A DNA stretch of 64,000 bases from Antarcticimicrobium luteum (GTDB lineage: Bacteria > Pseudomonadota > Alphaproteobacteria > Rhodobacterales > Rhodobacteraceae): the NCBI RefSeq assembly GCF_004358185.1, contig NZ_SMUV01000068.1, positions 62,001-126,000 of the forward strand, in the 5' to 3' direction. The notes under the pieces were generated by a model. That model made no database searches. It was not told where the DNA came from and saw only the letters and a program-made list of their open reading frames with translations. Shown here one piece after another: positions 11,879-64,000 of the stretch. Positions within the stretch are counted from its first letter, which is position 1, and each line of letters starts with the position of its first letter. The position numbers were made by a program, and so were the translations under genes.

Positions 11879-12049
11879 TCTTCAGGCCGGGCATTGGACG
11901 CCTTGCGCGCCGGATGTGGAATTGGTCTTCAACGTTACTGTGGCCGGATTGTCCATACAACGCCCGCCGCACCCTGTTGTCGCCGCCCGGATCGGTATAT
12001 GCACCAAAAGGCTGGGAAAGCCGCATCCGTCTGGGAGGACAGAAAGCAG

Positions 12050-12742
12050 ATGAGCACCGAAAAGCCCGCGAAACCCGAACAGAGAGTGGCTGCGCTGGAA
12101 CGCGGTCTTCAGGTGCTGAACTGCTTCCTCGGCGATCGGTCGCAACTGTCGCTGACGGAGATCTCCGAACGGACAGGCCATTACAAAAGTACCGCCCTGC
12201 GGCTGTGCAGCACCCTGCAGGACCACGGCTTCCTGCACCGCAATGCCGACGGGCTCTACAGTCTGGGCGCGGTCGTCGGCGAGCTGGGCAACAGGTTCTA
12301 CTTCGGCAACCTGATCGACCGGGAGGCCGTCCTGGCCAACATGCGCCGGTTGCACAGCGCCTTCGATGAAACCGTGGCCTTCTATATCCCGCTGGGGCTT
12401 CAGCAGATGTGCCTTTACCGGATCGAATCGCCGAAACTCGTGCGCGCCTCGGTCAACGAGGGCGACCGGATCCCGATTGGGTGCAACGCCAGCGGGCTGG
12501 TGATCGAAGCCAGCCGGGGCCGCCAGGGTGCGGTGTACGACTCGGTGCGCGAGAACGGCGTCGCGTTTTCCTCCGGCGCGGTCTCCGAGGGCGCCTCGGC
12601 GGTCGCAGCCCCTTTGCTGGCCGAAGATGGCGACCTGATCGGCGTCTATACTATCATCGGCCCCGACCAGCGGTTTGACGCCGGGCAGGTCGAGCGGATG
12701 ATCGGATTGCTGAAAGAGATCGTCTCTTCTGACCCGGCCTGA
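12050..12742 (+). CDS. IclR-family transcriptional regulator
   Basis: A 230-residue IclR protein. An N-terminal winged helix (about 12-70, with LSLTEISERTGHYKSTALRL) precedes a C-terminal GAF-like effector domain ending in the VERMIGLL helix. GGGAGGAC lies before the ATG at 12050. It is transcribed divergently from the MarR-LysR pair. It is one of two IclR genes between the gentisate modules. Either could read the AGAAC/GTTCT palindromes found at 19.0, 22.3 and 24.9 kb. Confidence 0.88.
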   Translation: MSTEKPAKPEQRVAALERGLQVLNCFLGDRSQLSLTEISERTGHYKSTALRLCSTLQDHGFLHRNADGLYSLGAVVGELGNRFYFGNLIDREAVLANMRRLHSAFDETVAFYIPLGLQQMCLYRIESPKLVRASVNEGDRIPIGCNASGLVIEASRGRQGAVYDSVRENGVAFSSGAVSEGASAVAAPLLAEDGDLIGVYTIIGPDQRFDAGQVERMIGLLKEIVSSDPA

Positions 12743-12763
12743 CATCTGCACCCCGATCCGCGC

Positions 12764-13711
12764 TCAGCGCCGCAGGCGGCGCAGTAGACCGCCTCTCATT
12801 ACCGATCCGGTCAGATCGTGGCCGACGATCTCCTCGGCCAGCCGCGCGCAATCGATCAGCGCCTCCAGATCGACCCCGGTCTCGATCCCCAGTTCGTCGC
12901 AGAGAAATACGAAGTCCTCGGTACACAGGTTGCCCGCCGCCCCCTTGTGACCGGCGAATGGACAGCCGCCCAGCCCGCCCACGGCGGCATCGAACATATC
13001 CACGCCCATCTCCAGCCCGGCCCAGGCATTGGCCACACCCATACCGCGGGTGTCGTGCAGATGCAGCGACAGGCGAAGGTCCGGGAACCGGTCACGCACG
13101 GCTCCGACCACCCGCTTGACGGTCAGCGGCGTTGCCCAGCCCATTGTGTCACCCAGGCCCACATGGCCCAGCGTCTCGCCGTGATCGCTGGCAAGGGCCA
13201 GCAGTTCGCCCACCCGGTCCACCACCCGCGCCACCGGGATATCGCCCTCGAAGTTGCAGCCGAAGGCCGCCGAAACGAAACCGCGCCGCACCGGCACACC
13301 CGCCGCCTGATACATCGCGATCAGCTCGGGTTGCGCCGCATATTGCTGCGCAGGTGTGCGGTTCTGGTTGCGCATGAGAAAGGCGTCCGAGGCATAGAGG
13401 TTCAGGCTGCCCTCCAGATCCAGCCCGCCGGCTGCGGCTGCCCGCTGAAACCCGCGGGCATTGAGCCAGAGCGCAGTATAGCTGACCCCTTCGCACCGCA
13501 CCATGCCGGTGACCACCGCCTCGGCATCGGCCATGCCCGGCACCCGCCGGGGATCTACGAAGGACACCACCTGGATATGGCGCAACCCGCTGTCCGACAG
13601 CCGGTCGATCAGGCGGATCTTGTCGACGGTGGATATCGCGGCGGATTCGATCTGGAACCCCTCTCTGGGGCCCTCTTCCTTTATATGGACGCGGGTGGGA
13701 AAATCGCTCAC
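12764..13711 (-). CDS. HMG-CoA lyase-like (acyl-CoA C-C lyase of the DRE-TIM family)
   Basis: A 315-residue TIM-barrel lyase related to 3-hydroxy-3-methylglutaryl-CoA lyase. Arg16 is in EEGPREGFQ, His217 and His219 in HLHDTRG bind the metal, and Cys250 in GGCPFAG matches the catalytic loop cysteine. The metal-binding Asp that follows the active-site Arg in classical enzymes is Glu17 here, suggesting an altered substrate. The start is GTG at 13711 with GGAG seven bases upstream. It faces an IclR regulator and lies near a family III CoA-transferase, a pairing typical for activating and cleaving a hydroxy-diacid (HMG, citramalate or malate). The product of gentisate or methylgentisate hydrolysis is a plausible input, by inference. 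Confidence 0.75.
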   Translation of the reverse strand: MSDFPTRVHIKEEGPREGFQIESAAISTVDKIRLIDRLSDSGLRHIQVVSFVDPRRVPGMADAEAVVTGMVRCEGVSYTALWLNARGFQRAAAAGGLDLEGSLNLYASDAFLMRNQNRTPAQQYAAQPELIAMYQAAGVPVRRGFVSAAFGCNFEGDIPVARVVDRVGELLALASDHGETLGHVGLGDTMGWATPLTVKRVVGAVRDRFPDLRLSLHLHDTRGMGVANAWAGLEMGVDMFDAAVGGLGGCPFAGHKGAAGNLCTEDFVFLCDELGIETGVDLEALIDCARLAEEIVGHDLTGSVMRGGLLRRLRR

Positions 13712-13875
13712 GGTTGTACTCCGGTTCTGGCTGCAGCGGGTATTGGGCCCTGACAACGGGGGGGCACAGCGCAGTCCGCCCCTTCGGGCCAGGCGCTACG
13801 CGGGTTTGGCATTGATATGTACAGTTTCATCTCGTAGAATGGTATTACGCTTGGTGAGAAAGATGAGGCATCAGC

Positions 13876-14604
13876 ATGACAGCGAAAAACGGTGTCGCCG
13901 CGGTCGAGCGCGCGCTTTCGATCTTGGATGCGTTTCGCGACACCGACGGCCGTCTTAGCCTTACGGAACTGGCCCAGAAGACCGGCCTGTACAAAAGTAC
14001 GATCCTGCGCCTGCTCGCCTCGCTGGAGGCCTACGGCTATGTGCGAAAGCTCGACGACCGGGGCTATCAGATCGGACCCAAATTTGTCGAACTCGCCGGT
14101 ATCTATCAGGAAACCTTCCGAATTGGCGATATCGTTATGCCGATGCTGGAGCGCATCGTGAACGAGGTAAACGAGAGCGCCTCTTATTTCGTGCGGGAAG
14201 GCAAAATGCGCCTGTGTCTGTTCCGCGTCGATGCCCGGCAGGAGATCCGCGACCATATCCGCGTCGGCGACACCCGGCCGCTGGACCGCGGCGCAAGCGG
14301 CAAGGCGCTGATCCGCTACAGCGGCAAGCGTGCCAGCGATGCCGGTCGCGACGGTCTTGTCTTCACCTCCTTCGGTGAGCGCAACCCGGACATGGCGGCG
14401 ATGGCCGCACCGGTGTTCGGCCTCGGCAATACGTTGTCGGGCTGCATCAACATCTCCGGCCCGCGCACCCGCTTTTCGCCCGAGCGGGTGGCCGAGATCA
14501 CACCGGTGCTGCAACGCGCGGCGGTAGAGCTGTCGATCCAGGCGGGCGCATCGCCCGAAATCCTGAAACGGCTGCTTCCGGCCGAAAAAGATCCCCGGTC
14601 CTGA
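13876..14604 (+). CDS. IclR-family transcriptional regulator
   Basis: A 242-residue IclR protein with the winged helix at about 5-65 (LSLTELAQKTGLYKSTILRL) and an effector domain behind it. GAGG lies before the ATG at 13876. It is divergent from the lyase (165-bp gap) and tandem-convergent with the CoA-transferase that ends 14 bp after its stop. This suggests it controls both of these genes. It resembles the IclR at 12050 in its DNA-binding helix (both have YKST), so the two may recognise related sites. Confidence 0.88.
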   Translation: MTAKNGVAAVERALSILDAFRDTDGRLSLTELAQKTGLYKSTILRLLASLEAYGYVRKLDDRGYQIGPKFVELAGIYQETFRIGDIVMPMLERIVNEVNESASYFVREGKMRLCLFRVDARQEIRDHIRVGDTRPLDRGASGKALIRYSGKRASDAGRDGLVFTSFGERNPDMAAMAAPVFGLGNTLSGCINISGPRTRFSPERVAEITPVLQRAAVELSIQAGASPEILKRLLPAEKDPRS

Positions 14605-14618
14605 CATCGCGGCCTGGC

Positions 14619-15839
14619 TCAGATCACGCCGCTGTCACGAAAATTTTTGCGATCTGCCGCGGTGACCCCGATCTCCTGCAAAAGGCCATCCGTGTCGGCC
14701 CCGAGCGTCGGCGGCGCCCAACCCGCAGCCGGCTCGCAATCGGACAGGCGATACCCCGCCCGCACTACACTGAGACGGTCGATCCCATCCACGCTGCTGT
14801 CAAGCTGCTGGATCAGCCGCCGCCCGGCAATCTGCGGATGCGCCAGAATGTCGGGTATGCTCATTACCCGTCCGGCGGGCACTCCGACTTCGTTCAGCGT
14901 CCGCTCCCAAGCCTCGGCCGGTTGCGTGACCAGGCTGGCCTCGATCTCGGCATTGAGCGCAGCACGGTTCGCCTTGCGCGCCTCGCGCTCGGCAAAACGC
15001 GGATCGGATGCGAGATCGATCCGGTCGATCACCCGACATAGCGTTTCGAACTGCTGCTGCCTGTTGGCAGCAATGTTCAGCGGGCCGTCTCCGGTACGGA
15101 AGGTGCCGGAGGGCGCGGCTGTCATGTTCTCGTTGCCGATGGGCGCAGGGGTAACCCCGGCCAGAAGATAATTTGAAACCACCCAACCCAGCGCCACAAT
15201 TGTACTGTCCAGCATCGACACGTCGATCGCCCGCCCCATGCCGGTCGTCCGCGCCGCAAGCAGTGCGCTGACGATGGCGAAGGCGGCGGTCATCCCCCCC
15301 AGCGTGTCGCAGAGCGGATAGCCCGCCCGCAGCGGCGCGCTGTCGGCATCGCCGGTGATGCTCATCACCCCGGACATGCCCTGGATGATCTGATCATAGG
15401 CCGGGTTGCCGCGTAGCGGCCCCTCCTGCCCGAAACCCGAGATCGCGCAATAGACCAGCTCCGGCCGCCGCGCCCGCAGCACCTCCTGCCCCAGTCCCAG
15501 CCGCTCCATCACCCCGGGGCGGAAGTTCTCGACCACCGCATCCGCTGTATCGACAAGCTGCAGGAACAGCACCTTGCCCGCCTCGGATTTGAGGTTCAAG
15601 GTCATCGATTTCTTACCGGCGTTCTGCGCCAGGAAGGACGCGCCCATCTTCGCCGTGTTCAGCTCCGGCCCCGCGCCCAGCTCCCGCGCCAGATCACCAC
15701 CTTCGGGGTTTTCGATCTTGATGACCTCAGCCCCCAACAGGGCAAGCTGATAGGTGCAGAACGGGCCTGACAGCACATTGGTCAGGTCGAGCACACGAAT
15801 GCCCTGCAAAAGATCGGCCTTCGGCAATTGGTCGGTCAC
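14619..15839 (-). CDS. CaiB/BaiF family III CoA-transferase
   Basis: A 406-residue family III CoA-transferase that moves CoA between carboxylic acids. The conserved N-terminal LxLTxVLSGP stretch, PAYDQIIQG (146-154), and Asp178 in LCDTLGG, which matches the acyl-carrying Asp of formyl-CoA transferase, are visible. The apparent start is GTG at 15839. It shares the space between the gentisate modules with the lyase at 12764-13711. Together they could activate and split a C4-C6 hydroxy-diacid. Known paired systems of this kind include citramalate/citramalyl-CoA and HMG degradation. Donor and acceptor acids are not determinable here. Confidence 0.85.
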   Translation of the reverse strand: MTDQLPKADLLQGIRVLDLTNVLSGPFCTYQLALLGAEVIKIENPEGGDLARELGAGPELNTAKMGASFLAQNAGKKSMTLNLKSEAGKVLFLQLVDTADAVVENFRPGVMERLGLGQEVLRARRPELVYCAISGFGQEGPLRGNPAYDQIIQGMSGVMSITGDADSAPLRAGYPLCDTLGGMTAAFAIVSALLAARTTGMGRAIDVSMLDSTIVALGWVVSNYLLAGVTPAPIGNENMTAAPSGTFRTGDGPLNIAANRQQQFETLCRVIDRIDLASDPRFAEREARKANRAALNAEIEASLVTQPAEAWERTLNEVGVPAGRVMSIPDILAHPQIAGRRLIQQLDSSVDGIDRLSVVRAGYRLSDCEPAAGWAPPTLGADTDGLLQEIGVTAADRKNFRDSGVI

Positions 15840-51961: not shown

Positions 51962-52647
51962 CACAGGGTCTCCGGTACAATCAGGTCGGCCGGCCCGCCG
52001 TCGGTGTGCAGGGTCGCGCCCGTCACCGCCTGCAGGTCCGCCATGGAAATCCGGGGCAGTTTTTCGCGCAGCACGAAATGCCCGTCCTCGACATCGATCA
52101 CCGCCAGCGAGGTGTAGACGCGCGTCACGCACCCCTTGCCCGTCAGCGGAAAGCTGCATTGCTCGACCAGCTTGGGCTGGCCGTCCCGGGTCACGTGGTC
52201 GGTGACGACCGCAACCCGCTTGGCGCCATGCACCAGGTCCATCGCGCCGCCCACCGCCGGCACGCCGCCGCGCCCGGTGGACCAGTTCGCCAGATCGCCG
52301 TTCTGCGCCACCTGGAACGCGCCGAGGATCGCCACATCCAGATGGCCGCCGCGCACCATGGCGAAGCTGTCGGCATGGTGAAAGAACGCTGTGCCGGGGC
52401 GGACCGTGATCGCCTTCTTGCCGGCGTTGATACAGTCCCAGTCCTCCTGCCCTGGCTCGGGGGCGGGGCCGAAATCCAGCACGCCGTTTTCGGTGTGAAA
52501 GATCGCCTGCCGGCCTTCGGGCTGGAATTGGGCGACCATCTCGGGAAACCCGATGCCGAGGTTGACATAGGCGCCGTCGACGATGTCCTGCGCCGCGCGC
52601 CATGCGATCTGGGCGTTGGTCAGTTTGATCTCGCTGATATCGGTCAT
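51961..52647 (-). CDS. pcaJ: 3-Oxoadipate CoA-transferase subunit B
   Basis: A 228-residue beta subunit of the succinyl-CoA:3-oxoadipate CoA-transferase. The catalytic Glu53 lies in FHTENGVLD, and the NLGIGFP start and the GGAMDLV segment are typical. It overlaps pcaI by 4 bp (ATGA) and pcaF by one base. Confidence 0.93.
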   Translation of the reverse strand: MTDISEIKLTNAQIAWRAAQDIVDGAYVNLGIGFPEMVAQFQPEGRQAIFHTENGVLDFGPAPEPGQEDWDCINAGKKAITVRPGTAFFHHADSFAMVRGGHLDVAILGAFQVAQNGDLANWSTGRGGVPAVGGAMDLVHGAKRVAVVTDHVTRDGQPKLVEQCSFPLTGKGCVTRVYTSLAVIDVEDGHFVLREKLPRISMADLQAVTGATLHTDGGPADLIVPETL

Positions 52648-55819: not shown

Positions 55820-55878
55820 AATACGGTGTGCCAACCGGTTTTCCAAAACCGCATTGGTCAAAGGCAGAGGACCGGAAC

Positions 55879-56598
55879 GTGAAGAAAAACGAAGCGCCTT
55901 CGGCTGACACGACGACAAAACGGGTTCTTCAGAGTTCCCCGGACATCGTGTTCAACGCAATCATCACTGGAATCCGAAGTGGATCTCTGGTCCCGGGGCA
56001 GCGATTGGTCGAGGCCGATCTGACAGAGAGCCTGGGCGTCAGCCGTGGCCCCGTGCGCGAGGCGCTGAAACGGCTGGCCGCGGAAGGGGTTGTCACGCTG
56101 AACGCCAACCGCGGGGCCTTTGTCCGCGCCCTCAACCGCAAGGATGCGGATGATTTGCTGCGGGTGCTGGAAGTGAACTGCGCGCTCGGCGCCCGGCTGG
56201 CCGCCCGCAAGATCGAAGAGGGCTATATGCGGGCGGAGTTCGAGGCCGCGGCCGAAGAGCTCCTGTCGCATGAGGCCAGGGGCGATTCCCACGATTTCAT
56301 CGAAGCGCGGCGCAAATTCTATGACGTGCTGTTCATGGTGACCGACAACATGGAGCTGCACAGGATCATTCCGCTGATGAACATCCATCTGCTGCGCCTG
56401 CAGTTCCAGACCCGGGTATCCGAAGCGGACCGCAAGAAACGGTTCGACGAATACCGGGCGGTGATCTCGGCGATCCTGACCGCGCAGCCCAAGCGGGCCG
56501 GGCGGCTGATGGCAATCCATATCCGTCGCACGCGCCTTTCGATCTCGCGCCTGACGGATGATGCCTTCCGCACCGGGCTGACCCGCGCCGACGGATAA
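55879..56598 (+). CDS. GntR-family transcriptional regulator (FadR subgroup)
   Basis: A 239-residue regulator with an N-terminal GntR winged helix (about 18-80, LTESLGVSRGPVREALKRLAAEGVV) and an all-helical FCD effector domain. The start is taken as GTG at 55879 behind GAGG; a start 17 codons upstream is possible. It converges with the ketone-carboxylase-type operon, ending 4 bp before its last gene, and probably regulates the SDR and DUF3237 genes and perhaps that operon. Confidence 0.88.
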   Translation: MKKNEAPSADTTTKRVLQSSPDIVFNAIITGIRSGSLVPGQRLVEADLTESLGVSRGPVREALKRLAAEGVVTLNANRGAFVRALNRKDADDLLRVLEVNCALGARLAARKIEEGYMRAEFEAAAEELLSHEARGDSHDFIEARRKFYDVLFMVTDNMELHRIIPLMNIHLLRLQFQTRVSEADRKKRFDEYRAVISAILTAQPKRAGRLMAIHIRRTRLSISRLTDDAFRTGLTRADG

Positions 56599-56602
56599 TG
56601 CG

Positions 56603-56905
56603 TCAGTCCGCGGACCACGTCCCCATCAGGATCACTGGTGTCACCCCGGTGAAATTCGCAATGTCCGCCTGGGTTTCCGCGCCATGTGCGGTCAGCGCGG
56701 CCTGAGCGGCCCCGGCGTCGTCAAACCGCAGCTCGGCCACCAGCTGGAATGGCGCCGACGGGTCGGCCTCGCTCGGGCACCAGTACCCCAGCTCCCGCAT
56801 CCCCATCGGATCCAACAGACGCCGCACCAGCGGCAGGTGGCTGGCGCGATAATAGTCCAGATCGACAGGACCACCGGCCGGATAAAGCACCGTAACGATG
56901 TACAT
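56603..56905 (-). CDS. EthD-family protein
   Basis: A 100-residue protein of the EthD ferredoxin-like dimeric alpha/beta-barrel family (YIVTVLYPAGG start, DYYRASHLPLVRRLL with the conserved His). Members are small proteins next to ring- or chain-degrading enzymes, some acting as cyclases or accessory factors. It is the last gene of the operon that runs leftward from beyond 64 kb, 9 bp after the thiolase. Its function here is unknown. Confidence 0.75.
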   Translation of the reverse strand: MYIVTVLYPAGGPVDLDYYRASHLPLVRRLLDPMGMRELGYWCPSEADPSAPFQLVAELRFDDAGAAQAALTAHGAETQADIANFTGVTPVILMGTWSAD

Positions 56906-56914
56906 CCCCGCCCC

Positions 56915-58075
56915 CTATAGCCGCTCGAACAGGGTGGCATTGGCCAATCCGCCGCTTTCGCACATGCTCTGAACCCCGTATTTTCCGCCGGTTTCATCCA
57001 GCGCGGCAAGCAGGTTGGCCGTCAGACGCAGGCCCGAGGCCCCGACAGGATGGCCAAGGGCAATCGCGCCGCCATATCGGTTCACGCGGTCGGGATCGGC
57101 TCCGATCTCCTGTTGCCAGGCCAGAACCACGCTGGCGAAGGCTTCGTTGATCTCAAAGGCGTCGATCCTGTCGGCGCTCAGGCCCGTGCGGGCCAGCAGT
57201 TTGCGGGTTGCGGGAATCGGCCCCGTCAGCATCATGACCGGGTCATCCCCGACCACCGCAAAGCCAGTGATTGCCGCCCGCGGGGAAAGGCCAAGTTTCG
57301 CCGCCGTCGCCTCCTCCATTATCAGCGCGCAGGCGGCCCCGTCGGTGACCTGGCTGGAGTTTCCGGCCGTCACCGACCAGTCGATCCGCGGGAAACGCCT
57401 GGCCATCTCTGGATCTTCAAACGCCGGGCGCAGGCTCGCCAGCTTCCCGAGGCTGGTGTCGGCGCGGATCCCTTCGTCCCGGTCCACGTTGCCGACCGGC
57501 ATGATATCCCGGGCAATCCTGTCGCGGGCGCCCTCCGCGCGATTGTGCGATCTGAGCGCGAAAGCGTCCATTTCACTCCGCCCGAGCTGCCATTCCGCGG
57601 CGATCAGTTCGGCAGAGATACCCTGGTGCACCATGCCGGCGGGATAGCGCGCGTGATACATCGGGCCCATGTTGTCCTTGCCCATGCGGTTGGATTTCGC
57701 CGACACCCGGCTCATCATCTCGACCCCGCCGGCAATGACGATGTCATATGCCCCGGCGATGACACCCTGCGCCGCAAAGTCCAGCGCCTGCTGGGCCGAG
57801 CCGCATTTGCGGTCGATGGTCAGGGCCGGCACGCTTTCCGGAAGGCCTGCGGCCAGAACCGCCTGCCGCCCGATATTCGCGGACTGCTCGCCGACCTGAA
57901 TGACGCAGCCGGTGATCACGTCCTCGATCAGGGCCGGGTCGATACCGCTGCGGGCCACCAGCGTCTGCAGCACCTGCGCATAAAGGTCCACCGGATGCAT
58001 ATGGCTGAGTGCGCCCCCCTCCCGGCCACGGCCGAAAGGGGTCCGCAGAATGTCGACGATCACCGCGCGGCGCAT
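56915..58075 (-). CDS. Thiolase (acetyl-CoA acyltransferase)
   Basis: A 386-residue thiolase. Cys91 in RKCGSAQQ, a His in GHPVGASG near 345 and Cys in CESGG near 376 form the active site. It starts 4 bp after the carboxyltransferase stop in the operon. The likely substrate is the beta-ketoacyl-CoA made by carboxylation of a methyl ketone and CoA ligation, for example an aroylacetyl-CoA giving aroyl-CoA and acetyl-CoA. It is only distantly similar to PcaF in this window. Acetoacetyl-CoA cleavage is the alternative if the ketone is acetone. Confidence 0.88.
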   Translation of the reverse strand: MRRAVIVDILRTPFGRGREGGALSHMHPVDLYAQVLQTLVARSGIDPALIEDVITGCVIQVGEQSANIGRQAVLAAGLPESVPALTIDRKCGSAQQALDFAAQGVIAGAYDIVIAGGVEMMSRVSAKSNRMGKDNMGPMYHARYPAGMVHQGISAELIAAEWQLGRSEMDAFALRSHNRAEGARDRIARDIMPVGNVDRDEGIRADTSLGKLASLRPAFEDPEMARRFPRIDWSVTAGNSSQVTDGAACALIMEEATAAKLGLSPRAAITGFAVVGDDPVMMLTGPIPATRKLLARTGLSADRIDAFEINEAFASVVLAWQQEIGADPDRVNRYGGAIALGHPVGASGLRLTANLLAALDETGGKYGVQSMCESGGLANATLFERL

Positions 58076-58079
58076 CGGA

Positions 58080-59540
58080 TCAGGCCTCGCGCCGCAGCGA
58101 CAGGTTCATCTGCGCCGACCTGATTTGAACCGCCGGGACGCTGGCAAGCTTCATCAGCTTGCGCACCTGATCCAGCTCCGGCGAGGACAGCAGCGGGAAA
58201 TCCTGCCGCACCGGGCCCGCCGCCCGCATCCTAGCCAGCGCGGGTTCGGGCACCAGCGCCCTGAGGATCAGCTCGTCCGGGTCGGTCGTACCATACTGCT
58301 TTTGCAGATCCTCGATGGAGGGCTGGGGCGGCGGGCTCGCCAGAACCTCCCTGGCCCGCGAGGAGGTCATGATCTGGTCCAGCACATTCCCTTCGATCGG
58401 CGCCACCGTTTCGCCGTAGTATCCGGCGGCATATTGAATGACCTCGTCGGGAATGACCGAATAGCGTTTGCCCGTGACCACGTTCAGCACGGCAAGGGTT
58501 CCGACCAGTTGCGAGAACGGTGTCGCCATTCCGGGATAGCCCAGCTCGCGCCGCACCCTGGCGGTTTCCTCAAGCACATCGTCCAGCCGGTCCATCATGT
58601 TATGCTGGGCCAGTTGCGCCTTGAGCGTCCCGGTCATGCCGCCCGGAATCTGGTGATGCACGGCCAGCACGTCGTATTCATTGTGCTGATCGACAAGGAA
58701 TCCGGCGGCGTGGCCGACGGCGCGGAAATGATCCTCGACCGGCTTGAACAGGCTTTTGTTCAGGCTGTGCGTATGGCCAAGCGTTTCGAGGTTCTTCACC
58801 ACGCTTTCGGTCGAGGGAACCGAGGGCCCATTCGCCATGGGGCGGGAGGCGGTATGCAGGATCGTCACCCCAAGCTCCACGGCGTCGAGATATGCCTTGC
58901 CCGACAGGCCAAGGATATTGTTGGCGTGAAACTCCATCGGTTTGCCCTTGATCGCCTTCTGGATCGCCGGGACGAGGGTTTTCAGACGCTCCTTCTCCAA
59001 TACGCCTGCGGTGTCATACAGCAGGATCGTATCGATATCCGGCGAGGCGGCCATCTGGCCCGCCTTTTCCGCAAAATACGCATCCGTGTGAACCGGAGAC
59101 TGCACGAACATGATCGAGCCGGCGACTTCGGATCCGTATTCCTTGGCGACCTTGGCCAGCCGGTGAATCTTGTCGATGTTGTACAGCACGTCATAGATCC
59201 AGAAAGACCGGATGCCATGTTCGTTGAGCTGCCGCATCCAGAGATCCATCAACGAATCCGGCGTCACCCCAAAGGTAACGGACGCATTGGAACGCATCCC
59301 CCCGCGCAGCCGTGTGCGCGGCATGGAATTGACCAGCAGGTCGAGCCCTTCCCAGGGGTTTTCCTGCGCGTGCTTGATCAACACCTCCATCAGCGACGAT
59401 CCGGCAAGGTCGATCACCCGGAACCCGGTGCGGTCAATCAGTGGTGAAACGGGCAGAGCCATGCCCGCCTGCATCCGCATGCCCCAGAGGCTCTGCTGGC
59501 CATCGCGCATGGTCTCGTCGAGAAATTCAACATGGGCCAT
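58080..59540 (-). CDS. Biotin-dependent carboxyltransferase (pyruvate carboxylase/oxaloacetate decarboxylase-like domain)
   Basis: A 486-residue carboxyltransferase subunit. The TIM-barrel signature DETMRDGQQSLW is at 8-19, metal-binding residues include the HANN motif near 229, and the C-terminal part resembles the pyruvate carboxylase carboxyltransferase tail. It would move CO2 from carboxybiotin to an enolisable acceptor. The acceptor is not a free CoA thioester as in acetyl-CoA carboxylase. In the Hpe-type pathway the equivalent subunit carboxylates a phosphorylated hydroxyacetophenone. It is followed by the thiolase and preceded (11 bp) by the biotin carboxylase. Confidence 0.8.
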   Translation of the reverse strand: MAHVEFLDETMRDGQQSLWGMRMQAGMALPVSPLIDRTGFRVIDLAGSSLMEVLIKHAQENPWEGLDLLVNSMPRTRLRGGMRSNASVTFGVTPDSLMDLWMRQLNEHGIRSFWIYDVLYNIDKIHRLAKVAKEYGSEVAGSIMFVQSPVHTDAYFAEKAGQMAASPDIDTILLYDTAGVLEKERLKTLVPAIQKAIKGKPMEFHANNILGLSGKAYLDAVELGVTILHTASRPMANGPSVPSTESVVKNLETLGHTHSLNKSLFKPVEDHFRAVGHAAGFLVDQHNEYDVLAVHHQIPGGMTGTLKAQLAQHNMMDRLDDVLEETARVRRELGYPGMATPFSQLVGTLAVLNVVTGKRYSVIPDEVIQYAAGYYGETVAPIEGNVLDQIMTSSRAREVLASPPPQPSIEDLQKQYGTTDPDELILRALVPEPALARMRAAGPVRQDFPLLSSPELDQVRKLMKLASVPAVQIRSAQMNLSLRREA

Positions 59541-59551
59541 CTGTCTCTCCT

Positions 59552-60913
59552 TCAGGCGGTTTCGAGCGCGGGGAGGACGCGGTCCTCCAGCCAGCGCGTG
59601 GTGATACGGTTGGACCGGAAATCCGGGTGGTCGATGATACGGGCGGCAAAGGGCAGCGTGGTCTTGATGCCCTCGATGCGGAAATCGTGGATCGCGCGCA
59701 GCATGGCCTCGATCGCGTCGTCGCGGGTCTTGCCCCGGGTGATGAGCTTGCCGACCATGCTGTCATAGAAGGGGGGAACCAGATCGCCGGGGCGGATATG
59801 GCTGTCCAGACGGATGCCCGGCGTGATCGGCGGTTCCCAGCCCGTGATCCTTCCGGGGGCGGGAGAGAACCCGTTTTCCGCATCCTCGGCATTGATCCGG
59901 GCCTCCAGCGCGTGGCCCTCTACCTTGATCTGGTCCTGCGTCAGTTGCAGGCCGGCCCCGCTCGCCGCGAGTATCTGGTGACGGATCAGGTCGACGCCGG
60001 TGATCTCCTCGGTGACGGGATGTTCGACCTGAATGCGCGAATTCACCTCGATGAAATAGAAATCCTCGCGCGCGATGTCATAGAGGAACTCGACCGTTCC
60101 GGCGCCGCGATATTTCGCGTGGGCACAGAGCCGGACCGCCGCGTCGTGCAACCGCTCCTGCAGCGCGGCCGGCATGGCGGTGACCGGGGCTTCTTCGATC
60201 AGTTTCTGGTAGCGGCGCTGAACCGAACAATCCCGGTCGCCGAAATGCAGCACGTTGCCCTCGCCGTCGCCGATGATCTGCACCTCGACATGCCGAGCCT
60301 GTTCGACGAACCGCTCCATGTAAAGCCGCCCATCGCCAAAGGCCGCTTCGGCCTCCCGGCTGGCTCGGGTAAAGGCGCTGGCCAGACCGTCGGCGGACCG
60401 GGCCAGGAACATCCCCTTGCCGCCCCCCCCGGCGCTGGCCTTCATCACCACGGGATAGCCCAACTCTTCGGCCGCGCCGGCCGCGTCGCCGGCAGTGTCG
60501 ATCATGTCGGTGCCGGGGACAGTCGCCACCTCGGCGGCCCTGGCCACGGCAATGGCCGACAGCTTGTCGCCCATTGCCTCGATGGTTTCGGGCCTGGGGC
60601 CGATGAAGGTGATCCCCTCCTCTGCGCATCGGCGGGCCAGATCGGGCTTTTCCGACAGAAAGCCATAACCGGGGTGCAGCGCGTCGCAACCCGTGGCCCG
60701 GGCCGCATGCAGAACCAGGTCCGCATTGAGATAGCTTTTGGTGGCCTGCGAGGGGCCCAGAACCACGGCGCGGTCGGCCATCTGCGCGGGCAGCCCGTCG
60801 CGGTCGGCCTCCGAAACGCCGAGGACGGTTTCCAGCCCCATCTCCTTGGCCGTGCGCAGCACCCGTAGGGCGATTTCACCCCGGTTGGCCACAAAAATGC
60901 GGGAAATGGACAT
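59552..60913 (-). CDS. Biotin carboxylase (AccC-like)
   Basis: A 453-residue ATP-grasp biotin carboxylase. The N-terminal RIFVANRGEIALRVLRT, the glycine-rich loop ASAGGGGKGM near 160 and the EVNSRIQVEHPVTE motif near 285 are present. It carboxylates the biotin of the adjacent carrier protein with bicarbonate and ATP. It is three bases downstream of the carrier gene. Being in a dedicated operon, not with accB/accD of fatty-acid synthesis, it belongs to the catabolic carboxylase. Confidence 0.92.
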   Translation of the reverse strand: MSISRIFVANRGEIALRVLRTAKEMGLETVLGVSEADRDGLPAQMADRAVVLGPSQATKSYLNADLVLHAARATGCDALHPGYGFLSEKPDLARRCAEEGITFIGPRPETIEAMGDKLSAIAVARAAEVATVPGTDMIDTAGDAAGAAEELGYPVVMKASAGGGGKGMFLARSADGLASAFTRASREAEAAFGDGRLYMERFVEQARHVEVQIIGDGEGNVLHFGDRDCSVQRRYQKLIEEAPVTAMPAALQERLHDAAVRLCAHAKYRGAGTVEFLYDIAREDFYFIEVNSRIQVEHPVTEEITGVDLIRHQILAASGAGLQLTQDQIKVEGHALEARINAEDAENGFSPAPGRITGWEPPITPGIRLDSHIRPGDLVPPFYDSMVGKLITRGKTRDDAIEAMLRAIHDFRIEGIKTTLPFAARIIDHPDFRSNRITTRWLEDRVLPALETA

Positions 60914-60916
60914 GGC

Positions 60917-61411
60917 TCAGACCTCGGGCTCGATCCACATCAGCGTGGCACCGAATTCGACCATTTCGCCGTCTTCGGCGACGATCTCGCGGACAATGCC
61001 CGTCATGCCGGCGCGGATCGTGGTGAACAGCTTCATCACCTCGACAAGACAGACCTCGGTCTCTTCGGTGACCTGGCCGCCGAGGGTCACATAGGGATCC
61101 GCCTCGGGGCTGGGGGCGCGGTAAAAGGTTCCAAGGTTGGGCGCCTTGATCGCCACCCAGCCGGTGCGGTCGGCGGCGGCGGCGGTCTCGACGCCACCCC
61201 CGGACGGCGGGGGAGGCGCCGCGCGATCCGGGGGTGATGCCGGCCCTGCGACCGGGGCGGGCGGGGCCGCAACGGCTGTCGCCGGGCCAGCCGCATTCGG
61301 ATCCTTGGAGAGGAACATCTCTTCATCGCCAAGGGTCAGATGCATCTCCTTCCAGTCGGACTCTCCGAAAAGCTGGACCAAGGCTTCGATGTCAGTTTGT
61401 TTCAGTGTCAT
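60917..61411 (-). CDS. Biotin carboxyl carrier protein
   Basis: A 164-residue carrier. The N-terminal domain is linked by a Pro/Ala-rich segment (about 38-75) to a lipoyl-like domain with Lys127 in EVMKLF as the biotinylation site. It mediates CO2 transfer between the biotin carboxylase and carboxyltransferase encoded next to it. The first 35 residues resemble AccB-type carriers. The gene lies 28 bp after the phosphotransferase stop. Confidence 0.92.
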   Translation of the reverse strand: MTLKQTDIEALVQLFGESDWKEMHLTLGDEEMFLSKDPNAAGPATAVAAPPAPVAGPASPPDRAAPPPPSGGGVETAAAADRTGWVAIKAPNLGTFYRAPSPEADPYVTLGGQVTEETEVCLVEVMKLFTTIRAGMTGIVREIVAEDGEMVEFGATLMWIEPEV

Positions 61412-61439
61412 GGCTTTTCGGTCTTCCCTGTTGGATGGG

Positions 61440-63212
61440 TCATTCGGTGGCCGAGACGGCGACGGTGTCGCGATCCTCGGAAGGTCGGGCGCCGCGAATC
61501 GCGGCCAGCAGGATGGGCAGGCGCGGACGCCCGACGATTGTTTTCAGCCCGGCACGAAGGCCGGCGGCGATCCCCTTGTCGTCGGCCAATGCGCCGCCCC
61601 CGGCGATGTCGATGCCGGTAAGCAGCCGCGGCAGGTTTTCGATTTCGCTGCCGCCCTCGACGCGGTTGAGGTCCAGCGCCCCGCCGAGGGCGTCTTCGGG
61701 CAGGATCACTTTCACCGGGCTCAGCCGTTCGGCGATGCGGGTCAGGCGAACCAGGCCGGACAGGGCCGTCTCGTCCGGTTCCTGCACCGGCAGTTCGCCG
61801 TCGAAAATCAGCCCGCCGCTGCCGTCGACGGTGACCTTGCGCCCGGCCAGCGCGGTCACCGACCCCTCGCCACAGCCCGTCACGCAGGGCACACCAAGCG
61901 CCCGGCTGACCACGGCGGCATGGCTGGTCGAGCCGCCCCGTTCCGTCACCACCGCCAGGGCGGCGATCATGCCGTGCAGATCGTCAGGACTCGTCGTGGC
62001 GCGGGCAAGGATCACCGCCTCGCCGTTCTTCGCGCGCCGCTCGGCCTCGTCGCTGTCCGTCACCACGGTGCCGATGCCGATGCCCGGCGATGCCGCCTCC
62101 CCCCGGGCAAGTTGCTTCGCCCGGGCCGAGGCGCCTTCGGGCAGGCGGGGGGCCAGCAGGCTCCGCACCTGGTCCGGCGTGATGCGGGACAGTGCGGTTT
62201 TTTCGTCGATCGTGCCCTCGTCAAGCATGTCGCAGATGATCTTGAGCGCCGCCTCTGGCGCGCGCTTGGCGGCGCGGGCCTGCAACAGGTAGAGTGTGCC
62301 GTTTTGCACGGTGAACTCGATGTCCTGAACGTCGCGGTTTTCGATCTCCAGCATTCGGGCGGCTCGCAGCAGGGCGTCATGCGCCTCCGGCAGCGCGTCC
62401 AGCATCGTGTCCAGCCGCTGCGGGGTGAACTTGCCCGAAACCACATCCTCGCCCTGCGCGTTTGCCAGAAACTCGCCATATACAGTGGGCTCGCCATCAA
62501 TCGGGTTGCGGGAGAACATCACCCCAGTGCCCGAAGTGCCGCCCATATTGCCAAATACCATGGCCTGAACCACCACGGCGGTTCCCAGATCGTCGGGGAT
62601 GTCGTGATGCTTGCGATAGCGTTTGGCGCGGCGGGAATCCCAGCTGTCGAACACCGCGCGGACCGCCGCGTGCAGACGATCCGCCGGATCGGCGGGCAGA
62701 GTGCGCCCGCTGGCGGTCTCGATCCGCGCCGCCCAGTCCTGCGCGGTCTCGTCGTTCGAAAACTCACCGGCCTCGGTCTTGAGAACGATATGGGCATAAA
62801 GCTCATGGAACCGCCGGTGGGTGTCGCGGGCAAAAACGGGGTCACCGCATTCCTCGGCCAGGGCCGTTTCGGTGTCCGGCGTGATCCCCATGTTCAGCAC
62901 GGTGTCCATCATGCCCGGCATCGAAATCGCGGCCCCGGAGCGGACCGAGACCAGCAGCGGCGACGGTCCCCTGCCATAGGTGCGCCCGGTTTGTTGCTCA
63001 AGCCAGGCGATGCCGTCCGCGATCTCGGCCTCGAGCCCTTCGGGATAGTCCTTGGAGCCGCGATAGGCGGTACAGGCTTCGGTTGTGATGACAAAGGCGG
63101 GCGGCACGGTCAGGCCAAGCGCGGCCATGCGGGCAACCGACCAGCCCTTGCCGCCGATCAGGGTTTTTTCGGGCAGGTGCGAGCCATCGAGTTTCAGGGT
63201 CCAGCGGGTCAT
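61440..63212 (-). CDS. PPDK/PEP-synthase-like phosphotransferase lacking the pyruvate-binding barrel
   Basis: A 590-residue relative of pyruvate phosphate dikinase. The ATP-grasp domain covers about 10-330 (GGKGWSVARM, SVRSGAAISMPGMMDT, LLQARAAKR). The swivelling phosphohistidine domain follows, with His431 in GGSTSHAAVVSRALGVP. The C-terminal PEP/pyruvate TIM barrel of full-length enzymes (about 880 residues) is missing; the last 130 residues are unlike it. It can therefore load phosphate from ATP but must use another acceptor, presumably presented by the 201-residue protein upstream. A closely analogous pair, HpeHI, phosphorylates 4-hydroxyacetophenones. Alternative: a phenylphosphate-synthase-like function. 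Confidence 0.8.
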   Translation of the reverse strand: MTRWTLKLDGSHLPEKTLIGGKGWSVARMAALGLTVPPAFVITTEACTAYRGSKDYPEGLEAEIADGIAWLEQQTGRTYGRGPSPLLVSVRSGAAISMPGMMDTVLNMGITPDTETALAEECGDPVFARDTHRRFHELYAHIVLKTEAGEFSNDETAQDWAARIETASGRTLPADPADRLHAAVRAVFDSWDSRRAKRYRKHHDIPDDLGTAVVVQAMVFGNMGGTSGTGVMFSRNPIDGEPTVYGEFLANAQGEDVVSGKFTPQRLDTMLDALPEAHDALLRAARMLEIENRDVQDIEFTVQNGTLYLLQARAAKRAPEAALKIICDMLDEGTIDEKTALSRITPDQVRSLLAPRLPEGASARAKQLARGEAASPGIGIGTVVTDSDEAERRAKNGEAVILARATTSPDDLHGMIAALAVVTERGGSTSHAAVVSRALGVPCVTGCGEGSVTALAGRKVTVDGSGGLIFDGELPVQEPDETALSGLVRLTRIAERLSPVKVILPEDALGGALDLNRVEGGSEIENLPRLLTGIDIAGGGALADDKGIAAGLRAGLKTIVGRPRLPILLAAIRGARPSEDRDTVAVSATE

Positions 63213-63216
63213 CGGC

Positions 63217-63822
63217 CTACTCCAAACGCTCGCGCCCGAGAACGCGGATCAGATCTTCGTGCATTTCGAACCAGGCGGTGTGGTAGCTCATGCATTTCGC
63301 GTCCGAGACCCACTCCACATCGCCATCCTCGGCCTTTTCCAGCGCGGTCAGCAGCAGATCCTTCCAGACCGAAAGCCGGGGCAGACCCGCGGCCAGCCGG
63401 TCAAGGATCGGTTCGGCGCGTTCATGCAGATCGCCCAGCCTGTCGATGATCCGGGCGTCATGGTCGGGGTCGGAGTGATCGTTGGGCATGGACTGCCCGC
63501 CGACCTCGATCGTCTGCCATTCCGTGATCAGCGATTTGAGCTGTTCGTTGATGCGCTCAAAATCATCATAGGTTGCCTGAAAGGCCGCATCCGCGCGTTC
63601 ATCCGCGAAATCCCGGGAATAGGCCGATTTCAGCGCGATCTGCGCGGTCGGGGTGAGCATGTATTTCTCACCGGATTTCATCGCACGTCCGCTGGTCACG
63701 GCCGCCGACAGATGTGTTTCTACGGCTTCCTCGGACAGGCCGGTGATCCGGGCGACCTCAGCGGCGCTGCCGTGTTTTTTGATCGCCAGCCCGTGCAGAG
63801 CCAGTTGCGGTGCTTTCATCAT
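63217..63822 (-). CDS. 201-residue partner protein of the PPDK-like phosphotransferase
   Basis: A 201-residue soluble protein without signal or membrane segments. Residues 1-65 resemble a winged-helix fold (EVARITGLSEEAVETHLSAA). The rest is mainly helical with a conserved-looking DLHERAEPILDRL and a HTAWFEMHEDL stretch containing several His, Glu and Asp residues. The ATG at 63822 overlaps the ligase stop as ATGA and has AAGGAG upstream; a second ATG follows directly. It is four bases from the phosphotransferase, so the two probably form one enzyme, as small partner proteins do with PPDK-like subunits in hydroxyacetophenone degradation. I do not recognise a catalytic motif. Confidence 0.65.
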   Translation of the reverse strand: MMKAPQLALHGLAIKKHGSAAEVARITGLSEEAVETHLSAAVTSGRAMKSGEKYMLTPTAQIALKSAYSRDFADERADAAFQATYDDFERINEQLKSLITEWQTIEVGGQSMPNDHSDPDHDARIIDRLGDLHERAEPILDRLAAGLPRLSVWKDLLLTALEKAEDGDVEWVSDAKCMSYHTAWFEMHEDLIRVLGRERLE

Positions 63823-64000
63823 TCGGACATCTCCTTTGATCTGGCGTGCGCGATCAGTTCGTCGCGCACCTTGCGGCGGAGAATTTTTCCCGCGCCGCTT
63901 TTGGGCAGGTCCGGCCAGACCTCGACGCCCTTGGGACATTTATGACCCGCCAGACGCCGTTTGGCGTGGGCCAGCACCGCGTCGGGATCAAGGCCCGCAG
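63819..64000 (-). CDS. AMP-forming acyl-CoA ligase, C-terminus (N-terminus outside window)
   Basis: The last 60 residues of an ANL-superfamily ligase. The conserved C-terminal segment KCPKGVEVWPDLPKSGAGKILRR contains the catalytic Lys used in adenylation. It is upstream of the 201-residue gene in the same operon, sharing ATGA. It probably activates the carboxylated product (a beta-keto acid such as aroylacetate) or an aromatic acid made by the pathway. The substrate-binding N-terminal domain lies beyond 64 kb. Confidence 0.85.
   Translation of the reverse strand, partial: AGLDPDAVLAHAKRRLAGHKCPKGVEVWPDLPKSGAGKILRRKVRDELIAHARSKEMSE

Follow-up and report, generated by a model that had tools for sequence, protein, structure and literature searches.

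What does an operon do that sets a truncated pyruvate phosphate dikinase (PPDK) beside a biotin carboxylase, CoA ligases and thiolases? The question is raised by the right-hand end of a 64,000-nucleotide stretch of the Antarcticimicrobium luteum genome (4.66 Mb), bases 62001-126000 of contig NZ_SMUV01000068.1. This whole stretch is called the window here; its coordinates are contig coordinates minus 62000, and genes past its edge at 64000 are given in window-equivalent numbers. A first-pass annotation had read the locus as an Hpe/Acv-type pathway for hydroxyacetophenones with a thiolytic finish. We propose, with a probability of about 0.5, that the operon serves the catabolism of a methyl ketone (or of a compound with a carboxylatable carbon beside a C=O group) that has, or is given, a phosphorylatable oxygen, and that this compound would pass through a four-part phosphorelay, carboxylation, dephosphorylation and thiolysis.

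The operon runs leftward over twelve genes, from the EthD gene (56603) to window-equivalent 70,653, crossing the window edge at 64000. The gaps within its window part measure -4 to 28 bases, and the order, strand and coordinates of all genes named in the first-pass annotation are borne out:

56603..56905, minus strand: EthD-family protein, the last operon gene (Pfam EthD, 3.2e-06; NCBIfam TIGR02118 above cut-off)
56915..58075, minus strand: thiolase ThlA, proposed to thiolyse a beta-ketoacyl-CoA (Thiolase_N/C; TIGR01930 subfamily above cut-off)
58080..59540, minus strand: carboxyltransferase (CT) of the pyruvate-carboxylase type with an altered active site (HMGL-like and PYC_OADA)
59552..60913, minus strand: biotin carboxylase (BC) subunit (Biotin_carb_N, CPSase_L_D2, Biotin_carb_C)
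60917..61411, minus strand: BCCP (Biotin_lipoyl; TIGR00531 above cut-off; biotin Lys127 in EVMKLF)
61440..63212, minus strand: PPDKs, a truncated PPDK of the VadK type, 590 aa (PPDK_N and PEP-utilizers; His431 in GGSTSH)
63217..63822, minus strand: P201, the 201-aa partner of PPDKs (no curated family above cut-off)
63819..65294, minus strand: CoA ligase A (LigA; AMP-binding and AMP-binding_C), its 5' part past the window edge
65391-66944 (window-equivalent), minus strand, past the edge: P517, a 517-aa protein
66969-67823 (window-equivalent), minus strand: stand-alone swivel protein (PEP-utiliser mobile, or swivel, domain)
67802-69355 (window-equivalent), minus strand, past the edge: CoA ligase B
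69352-70653 (window-equivalent), minus strand, past the edge: SCP-x-type thiolase

The open reading frame (ORF) of the swivel protein encodes 284 aa, or 248 aa if translation begins 36 codons downstream.

The operon is genuine and conserved beyond chance. The sequence itself shows which genes are present, how they are ordered and conserved, where they are fused, in how many copies they occur and which residues are kept. A contig collection was scanned with a P517 alignment, with scan patterns that both favour close relatives, and the best 80 loci of 130 relatives were kept. They span Alpha-, Beta- and Gammaproteobacteria, Actinomycetota and one Bacillus. All seven core genes (swivel, P517, P201, PPDKs, BCCP, BC and CT) are present in 39 of the 42 well-covered loci, those with at least 8 kb on either side of P517, and a ligase and a thiolase are likewise found in 39 of the 42. 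One of the three core exceptions, locus L039, is without BC, and another, L073, is without PPDKs and BC. In the third, Panacagrimonas, the swivel-P517 pair stands apart, with LigA-P201-PPDKs-BCCP-BC-CT at a distance of about 355 kb within one contig. This split indicates that parts of the operon can act in trans. The EthD gene is rare among the relatives (4/80 loci).

In the proposed route, PPDKs would load its own His431 with a phosphoryl group from ATP. Helped by P201, this group would pass to His226 of the swivel protein, which would hand it to a substrate held by P517. The phosphorylated compound would then be carboxylated by BC, BCCP and CT, and the phosphate removed by SurE or a Tyr-phosphatase encoded next to the operon. 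Finally, a CoA ligase and a thiolase would cleave the beta-keto acid to an acyl-CoA and acetyl-CoA. PPDKs and P201 would thus form a shared donor, and each swivel plus substrate protein an acceptor, in the fashion of the phosphotransferase system (PTS). The reactions themselves, which way the relay runs, what P201 and P517 do and the kind of substrate are all inferred.

How would the kinase be built? It is probably made of four separate proteins, PPDKs, P201, the swivel protein and P517, judging by their domains and co-occurrence. PPDKs carries PPDK_N and PEP-utilizers domains and matches NF004531 with 694.8 bits against a cut-off of 456. No family of the C-terminal pyruvate/phosphoenolpyruvate (PEP) barrel is found in it at E 0.01. 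With this result and a length of 590 aa, a full PPDK was ruled out, and the earlier description of a phosphohistidine (His431) protein lacking the pyruvate barrel is upheld. His431 is invariant in 58/58 aligned sequences, the window included. The swivel protein carries a second phosphohistidine domain, with His226 kept in 75/75, and P201 keeps His181 and His188 in 63/63; these counts omit ORFs that align over less than 70% of the window protein or exceed 1.35 times its length. A sequence search of the PDB gave two matches for the swivel protein (E 0.082) and one for P201 (E 0.98). The AlphaFold model of P201 (pLDDT 96.3) has a winged helix and, after it, a helical bundle, and Foldseek returned mostly winged-helix proteins, all weak (best E 5.9e-3).

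For P517, neither Pfam nor NCBIfam has a matching family, and a PDB sequence search gave 0 hits. Its predicted model is confident (pLDDT 90.8, pTM 0.91, from 59 sequences), and the comparison with PDB folds gave no match at E <= 0.001 (Foldseek best E 1.4). VIA-align reached a best Z of 3.3, which does not prove the folds to differ. Rifampin phosphotransferase (RPH), PEP synthase and PPDK are absent from the 46 Foldseek rows, which again is no proof of a different fold. We call P517 substrate-binding because of fusions and copy number only.

Copy numbers were counted with profiles over 86 loci (L013-L018 in addition to the 80). Two contigs (L016/L036 and L018/L058) are counted twice, here and, where present, in the residue-conservation and CT active-site counts. 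The ratio of P517-family, swivel, P201 and PPDKs genes is 1:1:1:1 in 56/86 loci, 3:3:1:1 in nine and 4:4:0:0 in one; the other 20 show partial or odd ratios, mostly at contig ends or flank limits. Swivel and P517-family genes are equal in number in 77/86 loci. The nine 3:3:1:1 loci, which include two Rhodococcus plasmids, also hold fusions of swivel and P517-like proteins, and one genome holds a P517-P201 fusion. On plasmid pROB02 of Rhodococcus opacus B4 (L024 11368-13749), swivel, P517-like and P201 parts are joined in one 793-aa protein, encoded between phosphotransferase-annotated genes and a Tyr-phosphatase gene, near genes for a P450 and a PPDK. The 3:3:1:1 ratio suggests a PTS-like design with one donor and several acceptors. 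In line with this, the sequences suggest that PPDKs and P201 are one donor pair serving interchangeable pairs of swivel and substrate protein, with the relay order predicted.

The same counts bear on another view of PPDKs, in which the targets of PPDKs and P201 are the carboxylase or other enzymes, controlled through binding or phosphorylation, rather than a small molecule. Such a role has been proposed for VadK, said to control methylcitrate-cycle enzymes by direct interaction (passages of PMC13400623), and the winged helix predicted for P201 would suit it. Against it, PPDKs comes with P517 and a swivel protein whose histidine never varies, in equal number or with several of them per PPDKs. 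Moreover, three of the four other plasmid-borne PPDKs/P201 pairs (M. avium, Diaphorobacter and Rhodococcus ZPP) adjoin a different swivel protein of 503-572 aa; for the fourth, in Streptomyces, there is no swivel protein within the stretch read. We doubt this regulatory role and consider it quite improbable.

Sets related to the relay also occur away from carboxylases. Swivel, P517-like, P201 and PPDKs genes are all found at L019, L020, L023 and L026 without a CT relative. L025 is without PPDKs, and L021 and L022 hold only the P517-like gene. At L025, in Methylibium petroleiphilum PM1 (11890-14779), genes for P517-like, swivel and P201-like proteins lie upstream of a methylmalonyl-CoA-mutase-type cluster, which we take to be that of 2-hydroxyisobutyryl-CoA mutase. 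Plasmid contexts such as those in Rhodococcus oxybenzonivorans and Methylibium gave no pointer to a substrate. Among nine neighbours picked by eye beforehand, eight, at six loci, score above the cut-off for DUF7064/DUF7065 and lie by PPDKs/P201/swivel modules:

L026 14029-15117: DUF7064/DUF7065
L129 12505-13395 and 16907-17959: DUF7064/DUF7065
L131 6083-6997 and 14866-15927: DUF7064/DUF7065
L132 11404-12459: DUF7064/DUF7065
L020 440-1444: DUF7064/DUF7065
L023 12989-13993: DUF7064/DUF7065
L014 13127-14272: the ninth neighbour, below cut-off

These proteins are perhaps part of the substrate side.

What would the phosphorylated compound meet next? With BCCP, BC and CT domains all present, the operon encodes a three-subunit biotin carboxylase with a PYC-type CT. 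In a tree of 41 rows, into which 31 of the 63 operon CTs were entered (L118 gave no sequence), these 31 and a CT of Rhodococcus opacus G13 form a 32-row clade with support 100/99. A separate clade of three rows (100/100) holds the CTs of Hpe-type clusters and of clusters with a Tm-1-like protein. The operon clade also lies apart from the pyruvate and oxaloacetate enzymes, although deep joins are unsure because some branches are long. An ordinary pyruvate carboxylase or oxaloacetate decarboxylase was rejected by this placement; the first-pass annotation had named a grouping with those enzymes as evidence that would speak against its pathway, and the tree does not give it.

Active-site residues were read from an alignment to 5ks8 and 2nx9, in the numbering of Rhizobium etli pyruvate carboxylase. 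We take the residues compared to serve as metal ligands, as the carbamylated lysine, in carboxylate binding and in proton transfer; Arg621 presumably binds the carboxylate of pyruvate. Asp549, Gln552 and Arg621 are kept in all 63 operon CTs. None has Lys712 (52 have Tyr there and 11 Glu); 50 carry Asn and 13 His at position 743, and all 63 have Gly for Thr882. The window CT has Arg621, with Tyr for Lys712 and Asn for His743. Seven of eight other aligned CT rows keep Lys712 and His743, and the eighth, of Rhodococcus opacus G13, has Glu and His. All three Hpe-clade CTs have Thr for Arg621 and keep Lys712, His741 and His743. A site changed in the sense opposite to Hpe suggests a different substrate, or an activated one. 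The operon CTs lend themselves to asking which residues are needed for enolisation in biotin carboxylases. CT relatives with a BCCP and without a kinase in the stretches read were seen in Sulfitobacter faviae (L111 6136-9446) and Rhodococcus opacus G13 (L112 10099-13467).

An activated substrate could also arise by phosphorylation of the ketone as its enol. With pyruvate, PPDK chemistry is an enol phosphorylation. A CT that received an already activated enol could do without the metal and the carbamylated lysine by which a free ketone is enolised, which is consistent with the alteration of Lys712, His743 and Thr882 where Arg621 is kept in 63/63; acetone carboxylase, for its part, forms phosphorylated acetone (abstract of PMC12250083). 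However, phosphatase genes at 32/42 loci suggest that a phosphate ester is still there after carboxylation, and the Glu at 712 in actinobacterial and Bacillus CTs could still bind a metal. The Hpe-type enzyme at L109 likewise has Gly for Thr882, and yet Hpe phosphorylates a phenol. We regard the enol route as unlikely, though as the likeliest of the alternatives to our preferred route.

The phosphatases lie just beyond the operon, where the first-pass annotation had sought them past 64 kb:

70707-71477 (window-equivalent), plus strand: SurE, divergent from the operon
71488-72243 (window-equivalent), minus strand: Tyr-phosphatase, adjoining SurE

SurE occurs in 28/42 well-covered loci and a Tyr-phosphatase in 8/42; either is present in 32. 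The window genome has a second SurE elsewhere, and with two such genes in 4.66 Mb the chance of finding one within about 20 kb is estimated near 1%. On two Rhodococcus plasmids the Tyr-phosphatase gene lies inside the operon, and the Bacillus operon ends with an NT5C-type HAD phosphatase; no HAD family was found among the 14 products from EthD through Tyr-phosphatase in A. luteum. That phosphatases of three unrelated families accompany one and the same core speaks for removal of the phosphate.

A CoA ligase and a thiolase of the acetyl-CoA acetyltransferase type would also suit acetoacetate, so that acetone or another simple aliphatic ketone might be carboxylated to acetoacetate and converted through acetoacetyl-CoA to two acetyl-CoA. 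An acetoacetate-decarboxylase-like family (one member checked) lies near five loci. Yet acetone offers no hydroxyl for phosphorylation. Transporter genes near the operon also vary by taxon, with LIV-type ABC, MMPL and TonB types outside the window genome (assigned by eye), and these differences suggest larger and varied compounds. We consider acetone very improbable as the substrate. CoA ligase B and the SCP-x-type thiolase (67802-70653) stand beside LigA and ThlA in the window operon and several close relatives; with this extra pair, activation and thiolysis may take place a second time.

Several points weigh against the ketone-phosphorylation route that we prefer. PPDKs has its own swivel, and we infer the need for a second one; the second swivel might be charged by the ATP-grasp part without an intermediate, or the two swivels might have different jobs. 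A VadK pull-down table in PMC13400623 names five partners, and no swivel protein is among them. By its predicted winged helix, P201 could be a regulator, and P517 has no match of known function, only fusions and copy number pointing to substrate binding. All nine 3:3:1:1 loci come from Actinomycetota and do not count as independent. Ten of the 42 well-covered loci have neither SurE nor a Tyr-phosphatase, and a motif scan of those ten found none; one of them is the Bacillus locus with the NT5C-type HAD. Lastly, a CT without the usual metal-site lysine may not run ordinary ketone carboxylation.

Beyond the operon's left end lies a convergent regulator:

55828..56598, plus strand: GntR/FCD regulator (GntR and FCD domains)

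A GntR family lies near 23 clustered relative loci, the window regulator being matched by eye to the family's member at L027. Neighbour families were clustered from crude ORF calls, with antisense ORFs dropped, only top families listed and names given partly by eye. A pcaJ/scoB-family CoA-transferase subunit lies at 51964-52605 (above its cut-off), and two flavin-monooxygenase-family genes are nearby, neither reaching the cut-off of any named aromatic hydroxylase. Past the Tyr-phosphatase gene, the transporter that the first-pass annotation had looked for is present as a Peripla_BP_4 binding protein and an ABC ATPase (ribose-type ABC by Pfam).

This leaves the question of whether the substrate is the one first proposed. 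In Rhodococcus rhodochrous GD02, HpeHI phosphorylates the phenol, HpeCBA carboxylates, HpeD dephosphorylates, and a CoA ligase and a hydrolase follow (passages of PMC9618137 and PMC12167813); the Hpe carboxylase works on phosphorylated ketones only (passages of PMC9618137). The Acv pathway of Sphingobium lignivorans SYK-6 is described as homologous to Hpe (passages of PMC12167813). Our reference for Hpe is the Hpe-type cluster on a plasmid of Rhizobium leguminosarum BT01 (L109), through which alone Acv was compared here.

Like the Hpe genes (HpeHI, HpeCBA, HpeD, HpeE, HpeF), the operon clusters a PPDK-superfamily kinase, BCCP, BC and a PYC-type CT, a CoA ligase and a phosphatase, and both CT types lie apart from pyruvate and oxaloacetate enzymes. 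The kinases differ. The HpeH substrate domain has no match in the window genome, where HpeH of L109 matches four places, all swivels, within its residues 497-599. The P517 profile did not hit the single HpeH sequence in hmmsearch --max, and hhalign gave a probability of 0.1%. An HpeHI-type kinase was rejected on these two grounds, although P517 and HpeH may still be related in fold. HpeI is ATP-grasp only (L109 HpeI, 354 aa, matches just that part of the PPDKs profile), whereas PPDKs adds its own swivel and has a 201-aa partner. The operon CT falls outside the Hpe clade and keeps Arg621 where it has lost Lys712 and mostly His743, the reverse of the Hpe type as judged from three enzymes. Finally, Hpe uses the HAD phosphatase HpeD and the hydrolase HpeF, and the operon SurE, Tyr-phosphatase and a thiolase instead. 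Judged by sequence, the operon is not an Hpe/Acv system, and that label is abandoned here: its logic is Hpe-like, and its kinase and CT are different.

A full-length HpeH-like match exists in 5/36 genomes with the P517 operon (46, 43, 30, 29 and 28%), and some match in 14/36, those beyond the five being swivels only. In the four neighbourhoods read (one a 9-kb contig), no CT relative was seen beside the full-length gene. In Pseudomonas putida YC-AE1 (L107 5883-7130) and Sphingobium yanoikuyae A3 (L108 5972-7204), Hpe-clade clusters hold a Tm-1-like ATP-binding protein in the place of HpeHI, along with BCCP, BC, CT, HAD and amidohydrolase genes. It is possible that this protein is a third type of kinase for ketone carboxylation.

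4-Hydroxyacetophenone or acetovanillone could still be degraded here with a non-homologous kinase and a thiolase finish. The order of the logic and the type of carboxylase are as in Hpe, Croceicoccus bisphenolivorans and Sphingobium estronivorans are among the carriers of the operon, and the Tm-1-like clusters indicate that Hpe-clade CTs can go with another candidate kinase. On the other hand, the CT lies outside the Hpe clade with inverse active-site changes, the HpeH substrate domain was not found in the genome, and no ring-cleavage enzyme is among the nameable neighbour families (SDR, GntR, acyl-CoA dehydrogenase, crotonase and others; named partly by eye, with many families unnamed). We find this pathway rather improbable. 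Of the first-pass proposal, the sequence of phosphorylation, carboxylation, dephosphorylation, ligation and thiolysis fits the gene content and the conserved operon; the hydroxyacetophenone is neither shown nor excluded, as nothing in the sequence fixes it. A progesterone side chain was a passing idea that was dropped, the relevant passages of PMC12239570 showing a Baeyer-Villiger route and making no mention of a carboxylase.

How does our preferred route compare with known systems at large? The open-licence literature that we searched holds no description of the operon, of P517 or of a two-swivel relay. Compared with Hpe, the operon is predicted to be a second solution to ketone degradation by phosphorylation and carboxylation, present in at least three phyla and run by a four-protein kinase. 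RPH, CreHI and PpsAB combine ATP-grasp and swivel domains with a histidine shuttle (passages of PMC12167813). The operon kinase resembles rifampin phosphotransferase and other small-molecule dikinases in having ATP-grasp and swivel domains, and is unlike them in being split over four genes, two of which, P517 and P201, make good structural targets.

VadK (Rv1127c) of M. tuberculosis, likewise a truncated PPDK, has an ATP-binding and a phosphohistidine domain and phosphorylates itself on His422; it is more soluble with its operonic partner Rv1126c, which a 2 M NaCl wash separates from it (passages of PMC13400623). The authors of that work propose that VadK controls the methylcitrate cycle through its binding to methylcitrate synthase; a pull-down recovered both cycle enzymes, and the passages on it name no phosphoryl acceptor and no swivel or substrate-protein partner (PMC13400623). 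Like VadK, PPDKs is an ATP-grasp plus swivel protein with a catalytic His and no barrel, beside a partner gene of about 200 aa. The experimental autophosphorylation is that of the relative VadK, from which the ATP-dependent charging of PPDKs is predicted. The likeness of P201 to Rv1126c rests on its position as operonic partner, and the M. avium plasmid pair matches both profiles (PPDKs HMM 7e-198, P201 HMM 8e-44). Unlike VadK as described, PPDKs and P201 are encoded among carboxylation genes, together with a second swivel.

Taken together, we tentatively propose, at somewhat less than even odds, a cytoplasmic, ATP-driven, PTS-like phosphorelay. A shared PPDKs/P201 donor would charge several swivels, each with its own substrate protein, P517 would be a new substrate fold, phosphorylation would let a CT without the lysine carboxylate, and VadK/Rv1126c would supply the donor part of a relay like this, either instead of regulating proteins or in addition to it. 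VadK as donor of a small-molecule relay is a suggestion of this analysis, and it could be so. If the shared-donor reading is true, it gives a testable biochemical role to pairs of a truncated PPDK and a 200-aa protein in many bacteria, VadK included. The PTS itself is made of EI, HPr and EII, with a shared donor and several specific acceptors; no membrane EII was found among the operon products scanned. The likeness is thus one of analogy only, one donor and several acceptors: unlike in the PTS, the donor carries an ATP-binding PPDK_N domain and no barrel, and the acceptors are swivel domains rather than HPr.

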